A stretch of DNA of 17,424 nt. Origin: Irineochytrium annulatum. Its lineage: Eukaryota; Chytridiomycota; Chytridiomycetes; Chytridiales; Chytridiaceae. The position numbers and the translations under genes are program-made. Where the stretch lies: positions 1 through 17,424 of the forward strand of contig JADGJL010000600.1 of assembly GCA_027600665.1 (NCBI GenBank), written 5' to 3'. Numbering within the stretch: position 1 is the first letter of the stretch; the number at the start of each line of letters is the position of its first letter. The notes beneath the pieces were generated by a model, which was given only the letters and a program-made list of their open reading frames with translations, ran no database searches and was not told the DNA's origin. Of this stretch, positions 7,801 to 10,570 are shown in pieces.

Positions 7801-10570
7801 TCGAGCTCGGCCCGTCTGCAAAGCCGCCGATCGGGCTGTCGCCGAATACCTCGGGAGAGCTTGGAAGCGGAGTCAATGGCGGAGCAAACGGGCACGGTGC
7901 CGACGGGAACGGGACTATGTCTCCCGTTATGCGCGCGAAATCTCCCATCCGCGGATTGTCGTCGAACCGCCTCACGCGCGGTTCATTTGCCGACGGAACT
8001 ACGAGCACCGGAGCGAACCCGAAGGGAGAGCTGGCCGCGATCGATGGACACGCGCCGCTCTCGAGAAGGAACAGCTACTCTTTTGACGTTACAGACGAGA
8101 CTCGAGGCAAGACCGGAAAGGTCTCGGTGGATGTCAGCGGTTTGGATATCAGTGCAAACGGGACGAGGATGTCGCCGTCGATGGCAACACCCGCGCCGAT
8201 GTCGGCTATCTCGGCAACATTCTCCTTAACGTCCCCTGTGTCGGCCACCGATGATTCGAAGCTGCCGTTTGACGAAGGACCGAGTCTTGCCGACATTTTG
8301 ACGTTGACATTGCATGACAACACTCACGTCGGTGCTGCCATCTCTTTGTTAAAGTCGTCGGCAAACTTGTACGATCAAATCGATCTTCTTCACTGTAAGT
8401 CGCTTTGTTGTCGTTCGACCTAATTACTCTTCAGACCTCCACTCTTGCCTGGGTCCTGATCACGTGATTGAAGGACTTGGGGCGATCACTCTTCTTCTAG
8501 AGGAAGTTTACGTCAAGGCGATGGGAATGAAGCTGTGGTCGATTGTACGCCAGGCGGCCGGCTTACTAAAAAAAATGGTTAACTCACTCACCATCAACGT
8601 CACCGACCTCTTGATTCGAAGCAAACCGGTCACGGTCGGATTCGGACAGCAAGAGTTCACTATTATGAACCCTCTTAGCCCGGAGGCCTTGAGCGAAATC
8701 ATTTATAGGCATTGGTAAGTATCTACGTTTTTGCAAATGTACTTAAGCATCTTGCGTAGTGCGAGCGATGTCCGGGAAGCTCCTCTTGTCCAAGAAATTA
8801 TTACATACCTAGGATCGCTAGTTCGCTCGAATGCGAGCCTTTTTGATGGGATCCAGAGGGTTCGGACGTACTTCTTTGTTATCGCGATGAGGGAGGAGAT
8901 TTCGAGGATGAAGGGCTGCGATGAGGAGGAGGCTATTGAGTTGTTGATGCAGGTGCGTGTCGTGGTAAAGTCCGACAAAATACTTACTAGACGTAGCTGA
9001 GCCCGTTCGAGCTTAAGTCTTTGTTGGGCACAGTCTTGTCCGCTCGTGACAGCACCACTGCTGATCTTCCCGGAGTGGGGACTTCGACTCTCTCTCGTCT
9101 GCGCAACAGTCAAACTCAGAACGGAAACGCAGCTACATCCACGACTGCCTCGGGCATGCCGACCGTGGACGCCCGGCTTTCGAACGCGTCTGGCGTAATG
9201 CCCTCGACTCTTACGATTGCTGCCCAGTCCGGTGGGTTTAGCGCCGGAAACTTCGCGAGGGTCGAGGTAGGGCGGGACGATGCCGCCGCGGCTTTACCCG
9301 GAATATTCGGTCGGGGCCTGAACGTAGTTGTAATGGACCCTCTTGATGGCTCCGTTGTCGAGACGACGGCGTTCGATACGCATATCTCGCAGGAAGAGTC
9401 GGAAGAGTTTGCTAAAATGGTGGAGTGGCTCGAGCCCGGCATGATCGTCGTCATTGTCGCAAAGGTACACGTCGTCGTTACACTTAGGTATTAAGTGCGT
9501 TGTTAGGATGACGCCGCAGAAAACCTGACGGAGGCTGCTCGCGCCGCTTGCGAGTCCCTAGGTTCTAGCAGGGTTCGGGATTTGCACTACCGGGACTCTT
9601 GGTGTTTGATTGGAGAGAAGGGTGCCGAGCGAGGGTCCATGCCGGAGTCGCTGCGGTCGACAAATCAGGGGCCTACAGAGAACATTCAGCGCACAATCGA
9701 CCTTGTGACTAGGAGGAAGAAGATGCTCGCGTCGCTGCCAAGCCAAAGTCAGGCCCGATTGTTATCTATTGGCACTGCAGCTACGTTGTTGATGCCGTCG
9801 AACGGAAGGTGGCTGAGGAGGAGGAAGAACGACGGCGCATTGAACCGAGTGCCGCCAGACTTCTACCCTAAGGTCTGGCATGTTCTCAGCAAATGCCATG
9901 GGATTGCTATCGGAAGAGAGTTCCTGCCTAGAGACCCGACCGTTAGCGAAAAGACTCCGGAAGAGCATAACTTCGGTAGGAAAGATTTTGACTATCTCAC
10001 CTGCGTCAATTCTTAACGCGAGATTTAGCCCTTCAAATTGAATACCTCCTCGATGTCATTCGTGATCCGGCGGAGCGCCAGATTGCGGTCGAGTGCCTCG
10101 TTGTCATTTCGCGTATCTCGGAACGCAACCCTGAGATTCGGATCAGTTCCGGCCCTCTTGACCTAATGCGAGTTATACGCGACGCCGTGTCGCGCTTCTG
10201 GTGTCGATGGGTAAATGAGCAGAGCCCTGGGACTGCTGCGGCCTTCGCCTATTCGGACCAGCAGCAGCAACAGGTGCCCGCGGACGGTACAACCCCCGGG
10301 CTTGGCCGCTCGCCTACGAACCCGAACGGCCTTGTTAGCGTTACGCCAACCGGATCGCAGAGCAACCTGAGCGCTACGTGCGACCTCACGTTTGATAGGA
10401 ACGAGAGGCTCGCGCGGAGATTATTCTTTGATCTTGCCCAAGACGGGAAGGAAGGCACCATGTCCTACCTAGCCGAGAGCTGCGTCCGTCTTTGTTTCGA
10501 CGTTCAATGGGGTGGCGAGGGTGGCGTAGGCAGGGGTGGCAGGAAAGAAGAAGTAACTGTGACCCCGTAG
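4892..10570 (+). CDS. Phosphorylase b kinase regulatory subunit (alpha/beta type) with inserted ILEI/FAM3 domain
   Basis: The family scaffolds and restrains phosphorylase kinase, the calcium- and cAMP-responsive activator of glycogen phosphorylase. Exons: 4892-4987, 5183-5238, 5304-5383, 5431-5551, 5595-5770, 5810-6218, 6268-6964, 7009-7147, 7189-8394, 8435-8714, 8760-8952, 8997-9464, 9507-9975, 10029-10570. Every junction is GT-AG and in phase; total 4932 bases, 1643 residues (animal subunits are ~1100-1240). Residues 1 to ~715 are the glucoamylase-like part: GLIPAS, DAWVRDNVYS, YRRIDDD, VVGDREWGHLQIDA, FLRDG, SGRP-like LTGRPKRPIG. A Ser/Pro-rich linker follows (~726-949). Then come the helical part (LWSIVRQAAGLLKKM, MNPLSPEAL), LSPFELKSLL at 1152, the inserted domain (1237-1347), and a basic block at 1408 (RRRKNDGALNRVPPDFY) followed by KEGTMSYLAES. 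It mixes alpha-like and beta-like features. The C-terminus has no CaaX prenylation box. Start at 4892 is the only in-frame ATG fitting the conserved N-terminus; the 195-base first intron has a GTCAGT donor. Confidence 0.95.
7590..8260 (+). other. Disordered Ser/Pro/Gly-rich regulatory linker in the phosphorylase-kinase subunit
   Basis: About 225 residues (roughly 726-949) separate the glucoamylase-like part from the helical part. The composition is rich in Ser, Pro, Gly and Asn, without predicted membrane or globular character. It contains two RRxS-type basophilic kinase sites, RRRSS (7650..7664, Ser 749/750) and RRNS (8064..8075, Ser 887), and several SP sites (KSPLKSP, AKSPIRG). Animal alpha and beta subunits are activated by protein kinase A at such sites; use here is inferred. 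Confidence 0.7.
9252..9626 (+). other. ILEI/FAM3 (PANDER-like, GG) domain inserted in the phosphorylase-kinase subunit
   Basis: Residues ~1237-1347 show the family signature in order: GRGLNVVVMDP, a Gly turn, FDTH, a helix, PGMIVVIVAKDDAAENL, a helix ending LGSS, then YRDSWCLIGEKGA. Animal relatives are FAM3/ILEI, CEMIP/TMEM2 and the POMGNT1 stem, all in the secretory route; the POMGNT1 stem binds sugars. The intron at 9465..9506 splits the domain in phase 0, right before DDAAEN. Phosphorylase-kinase sequence flanks it in the same exons on both sides, so it is not a separate gene. Confidence 0.9.

Follow-up and report, generated by a model that had tools for sequence, protein, structure and literature searches.

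Which role could an ILEI domain (FAM3-type, also called GG) play inside a regulatory subunit of phosphorylase kinase, a founding case of regulated phosphorylation and the enzyme that turns on the breakdown of glycogen? The question arises from a gene of the chytrid Irineochytrium annulatum (Chytridiomycota) on contig JADGJL010000600.1 (assembly GCA_027600665.1), of which a stretch of 17,424 nucleotides, referred to here as the window, was analysed. An earlier note on this DNA had recognized the domain within phosphorylase-kinase sequence and proposed that it senses glycogen or sugar. The observation is correct and holds more widely than stated: a complete ILEI/FAM3 fold inside the regulatory subunit was confirmed. 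A sugar explanation is plausible, and glycogen is the weaker form of it. On balance, we expect the domain, which stands before domain D5 of the subunit, to bind a small sugar or a sugar end, and carbohydrate would thereby probably tune or anchor the kinase.

Gene model and domain content

The gene at 4892-10570 on the + strand encodes a phosphorylase-kinase alpha/beta subunit of 1643 residues in 14 exons. In this model, built from the DNA, all 13 introns are GT-AG and the reading frame is open through to the stop. Its features are as follows.

4892-4987, 5183-5238, 5304-5383, 5431-5551, 5595-5770, 5810-6218, 6268-6964, + strand: exons 1-7
7009-7147, 7189-8394, 8435-8714, 8760-8952, 8997-9464, 9507-9975, 10029-10570 (including stop), + strand: exons 8-14
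4919-8868 (including introns), + strand: GH15 glucoamylase-like part by Pfam, residues 10-1123
8997-9464, + strand: exon 12, with LSPFELKSLL, a variable linker and the first half of ILEI
9057-9197, + strand: variable linker before ILEI (residues 1172-1222, 25% mean pairwise identity)
about 9198-9719, + strand: structural domain of ILEI/GG (FAM3) type, approximately residues 1219-1378, mapped from residues 61-222 in the model of relative P0122
9312-9626 (9312-9464 and 9507-9626), + strand: Pfam ILEI core, residues 1257-1347
9465-9506, + strand: 42-base GT-AG intron within ILEI
9312-9314, + strand: Arg1257, equivalent of POMGnT1 Arg129
9507-9509, + strand: Asp1308, equivalent of POMGnT1 Asp179
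9591-9593, + strand: Arg1336, equivalent of POMGnT1 Arg207
9720-9791, + strand: variable linker after ILEI (residues 1374-1402, 27% mean pairwise identity)
9792-10225 (intron 9976-10028 inside), + strand: KPBB_C, residues 1403-1529, corresponding to D5 of human alpha and beta

The 14-exon model and Pfam bear out that ILEI lies in frame between LSPFELKSLL and GALNRVP, in the same exons as these blocks: exon 12 (8997-9464) carries LSPFELKSLL and the first ILEI half, and exon 13 (9507-9975) carries the second half and the GALNRVP block, RRKNDGALNRVP. The interval first given for the domain, 9252-9626, roughly matches the Pfam core; the structural domain is wider, and the 42-base intron falls within it. 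Searching the 1643-residue protein with hmmscan returned both expected families, namely PF00723 Glyco_hydro_15 at residues 10-1123 (E=1.9e-84), PF15711 ILEI at 1257-1347 (E=5.5e-27; 94.5 bits, cut-off 27) and PF19292 KPBB_C at 1403-1529 (E=1.9e-31), with the GH15-like domain and KPBB_C in the order of phosphorylase-kinase alpha/beta subunits. Even unspliced, the two ILEI halves each exceed the cut-off alone (41.4 and 40.4 bits). NCBI's protein for the gene, P0001 (1586 residues), follows a different splice model, which omits the sequence of exons 2-3 and the start of exon 12, and thus lacks LSPFELKSLL and the DAWVRDNVYS stretch; relatives retain both.

In AlphaFold models from two relatives, the domain superposes on the POMGnT1 stem at 1.6-1.9 A, with 142-144 residues aligned. 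As had been anticipated, these models of relatives have the beta-beta-alpha fold of FAM3 and the POMGnT1 stem. No signal peptide or membrane segment was detected by hydropathy (maximum 19-residue mean 1.27), so the subunit is predicted to be cytosolic, as the earlier note had assumed. The POMGnT1 stem belongs to a Golgi glycosyltransferase, whereas the fungal protein is a regulatory subunit with a predicted cytosolic location. FAM3A/B/C (ILEI, PANDER) and the GG domains of TMEM2 and KIAA1199 share its Pfam family and fold but, unlike it, belong to secreted or cell-surface proteins. The supposition that the fold is limited to secretory-pathway proteins did not hold, because GG/ILEI domains of phage tail-fibre proteins (gp35 hinge connectors, TP-778L Tal CBM_1) also have it. 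The phage domains are adhesion devices, and that of TP-778L Tal has been described as a carbohydrate-binding module; a sequence-level search of 50,697 phage records gave no match with a threshold of E 0.01.

Distribution and descent

The search with the ILEI region, a query that favours ILEI carriers, yielded 160 matches below 1e-3. Among the best 120 protein clusters, which are those listed and include P0001, PF15711 is present in all and PF15711, PF00723 and PF19292 together in 117. That two adjacent genes were merged by faulty modelling is hardly credible, since both exons contain sequence of both families and since the same domain order recurs in those 117 clusters. A second search used only GH15 sequence (residues 1-600 of P0102); ILEI was present in 114 of the best 120 matches listed, the query included. 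The six others comprise four fragments without KPBB_C (P0179, P0180, P0188, P0190) and two proteins with it, which are considered below. Carriers from either search belong, by looked-up phylum, to Chytridiomycota, Aphelidiomycota, Blastocladiomycota, Basidiobolomycota, Zoopagomycota and Mucoromycota; no Dikarya name was seen by eye among the matches listed. In a separate piece search, 37 of 56 matches had ILEI and 19 did not. The named ILEI-less ones are cyanobacterial, except for a Batrachochytrium fragment (P0153) from a species that also has an ILEI form (P0092). Cyanobacterial proteins such as Leptolyngbya P0164 and P0165 have GH15 and KPBB_C as the fungal subunit does, but no PF15711.

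The alignment used for conservation has 120 rows: the window protein, P0001 (the NCBI version of the same gene) and 118 others. Over 1500 sampled pairs, mean pairwise identity is 54% for ILEI, 25% and 27% for its linkers, 62% for KPBB_C and 81% for the N-terminal GH15 part. ILEI distances correlate with those of the remaining sequence of the subunit (Spearman 0.76, 115 rows; none of 300 permutations as high), as would be expected of a single old insertion inherited since. The architecture is old and is the usual form among the early-diverging fungi sampled. It had been thought undescribed, and no published description was found in the literature searched; it is nevertheless common and already present in precomputed Pfam annotation.

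Comparison with human phosphorylase kinase

P0001 matches human PHKA1 (chain 8jfk_M, E=3.1e-206) and PHKB (chain 8jfk_B, 2.4e-196). Both human subunits resemble the fungal one in their GH15-like D1, their D2-D5 order with D5/KPBB_C, and two alpha-type glutamates: Glu188 (113/113) and Glu421 (118/118), each counted over those of the 120 rows that have a letter there, match the catalytic-type glutamates of human alpha-type GH15. They differ from it in having no match over ILEI. At this point about 100 residues of alpha (951-1050) are unmatched, which fits the placement of the insertion at the variable segment of animal alpha and which we take to be the phosphorylated segment; in beta, only 899-914 are unmatched. 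The sequence after ILEI matches human alpha 1051-1213 (8xyb_A) and is taken, from this alignment, as D5. In human alpha, D5 binds the autoinhibitory segment of gamma, and D1 has a site that looks intact with no detectable activity (PMC10978961).

The subunits differ further in that the fungal gene seems to be single, with one KPBB_C gene found in the I. annulatum genome, and in the absence of a C-terminal CaaX of the kind found in human alpha and beta. The window protein ends in VTVTP; C-x-x-x occurs in one of the 120 rows, some of which are fragments, and is missing in 119. CaaX belongs to the mammalian subunits rather than to the domains of the family. Human alpha and beta have been described as packing through farnesyl groups (PMC10978961), an arrangement that is therefore probably missing here.

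Another contact could substitute for this packing, and ILEI may accordingly be considered mainly as a protein-protein module that serves kinase assembly or recruitment to glycogen phosphorylase, with no sugar role. We regard this as possible but somewhat unlikely. Human KIAA1199, a protein with two GG domains, is reported to contact PYGB as well as PHKB, and its C-terminal part to bind PHKB and to promote PYGB phosphorylation and glycogen breakdown (PMC4196182), with a putative role of the GG domain; FAM3C dimer structures also exist in the PDB (5lc4). Set against this, the KIAA1199 amylose-resin pull-down comes from a single study, the C-x-x-x count includes fragments, and invariance in the fungal domain falls on a triad of sugar-contact positions and on glycines, not on an extended surface.

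The putative sugar-contact triad

The earlier note described the POMGnT1 stem as carbohydrate-binding, and a published report supports this, giving Arg129, Asp179 and Arg207 as contacts; in the same report, a worm Fam3L1 domain without equivalents of Asp179 and Arg207 showed no sugar binding (PMC9802357). In the fungal subunit, Arg1257, Asp1308 and Arg1336 are in register with these residues, and their spacing agrees with that in a PDB chain. The P0105 model places Asp845 at offset 179 and Arg873 at offset 207, with Arg794 one short of 129. Each triad residue is present in 120/120 rows. A domain model built from these rows matched 177 of 202 sequences, that is, 176 of phosphorylase-kinase type (window protein and P0001 both counted) and P0011; by pattern, 163 of the 177 have a GALNRV-type flank. 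Across phosphorylase-kinase sequences with a letter at the position, Arg1257 is kept in 174/174 (two gaps) and Asp1308 and Arg1336 each in 176/176. Residues 1223-1347 hold eight invariant columns over the 120 rows. By contrast, the second ILEI copy of P0011 has Asp, Gly and Asn at the triad and lacks two invariant glycines while retaining three other invariant residues. Sugar binding by the fungal domain is thus likely as judged from sequence, and by analogy we infer that its triad would bind sugar as that of POMGnT1 does.

Two other ILEI proteins were noted. P0011 has 1150 residues, five ILEI copies of which the second has the degenerate triad, and an extra C-terminal part (PF26146, PF26178); its copies resemble those of the fungi unusually closely (46% identity across 41% of the query). 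A second ILEI gene of the genome, L002 (C388, Pfam match 9099-9407, - strand), encodes an N-terminal ILEI followed by a BAG domain, both at E=2e-7. Its triad reads Arg, Gly, Gly, with two of the three contact residues replaced by glycine.

Proposed ligand and coupling to the kinase

The suggested ligand, glycogen or a sugar, stands in part: a sugar is plausible given the intact triad, and glycogen is the weaker candidate. The POMGnT1 stem has a reported preference for beta-linked Glc, Man and GlcNAc, which argues against glycogen; by this analogy, the ligand is more likely an end in the beta configuration, such as Glc or GlcNAc, than the alpha-glucan of glycogen. A tether that holds the kinase on the glycogen particle by direct alpha-glucan binding, as the note had proposed, would suit a lectin-like fold within a regulator of glycogen metabolism, and FAM3-type domains in cell lysates are reported to have bound several sugar resins (PMC9802357). 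Such a tether is improbable, given the beta preference and given that the subunit has a more obvious alpha-glucan site in its GH15-like domain. Candidate ligands are beta-O-GlcNAc on proteins and beta-glucose. The former is a candidate in the cytosol because the genome encodes, by its similarity, an animal-type O-GlcNAc transferase with TPR repeats (L029, C343:12744-14062, +; 399.6 bits to human OGT and 175.9 to SPINDLY). O-GlcNAcase was not found in the genome in a search that had no working control.

The route from ligand to kinase is speculative and draws on the human enzyme. The lectin-like domain sits on flexible linkers immediately before D5, and its pocket would bind a sugar end. Because D5 of human alpha holds the autoinhibitory segment of gamma, a ligand on ILEI would alter the grip of D5 on gamma; alternatively, sugar-bound ILEI would position the kinase on a sugar-bearing target. 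A sensor or a tether role may be inferred on these grounds. The reported binding of PHKB by the C-terminal part of KIAA1199 is an independent hint. The strongest form of the idea, in which the phosphorylase kinase of early fungi is carbohydrate-gated, the pocket reading a cytosolic sugar end and shifting the hold of D5 on the catalytic subunit, we consider unlikely.

Several observations weigh against a carbohydrate role. No match to GT3 or GT5 glycogen synthase was found in the draft genome, which does encode glycogen phosphorylase on C281. A PHKG1 query gave 94 kinase matches, and by eye no clear gamma was seen among the eight loci examined. ILEI-family domains typically have this triad, and its conservation may partly reflect the fold. 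Gorgonomyces haynaldii P0177 and Synchytrium microbalum P0189 have KPBB_C but no ILEI, running from LSPFEMK straight to the RRK block; this can reflect loss of ILEI or wrong gene models. If these annotated relatives are taken as they stand, the kinase can work without the domain, and ILEI might be a ligand-free spacer from an old insertion between phospho-regulated linkers. An identity of 54% between linkers of 25-27%, together with an invariant triad, is unlike a spacer and renders this account very improbable.

Neighbouring genes

Two further features were seen in the window. On the - strand, 1687-3170 holds exons of a P2X-type ATP-gated channel, adjoining the phosphorylase-kinase gene (PF00864, E=3.2e-8 for 1687-2280; 2922-3170 is below the cut-off). 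On the + strand, 16764-17423 encodes a protein kinase domain (PF00069, E=1.4e-29) that is truncated by the window end and, by eye, is not phosphorylase-kinase gamma.

Implications

With the fungal ILEI domain, the question of what the carbohydrate-related domains of phosphorylase kinase do can be put to a direct test on a small protein. This domain is independently folded, keeps the residues of a known sugar site, stands beside D5, by which the catalytic subunit is held, and is conserved across the early fungi sampled. Given the report on KIAA1199 and PHKB in human cells, the meeting of a GG domain with phosphorylase kinase is perhaps not specific to fungi. If true, carbohydrate gating would give phosphorylase kinase its first described intracellular switch of the lectin type.
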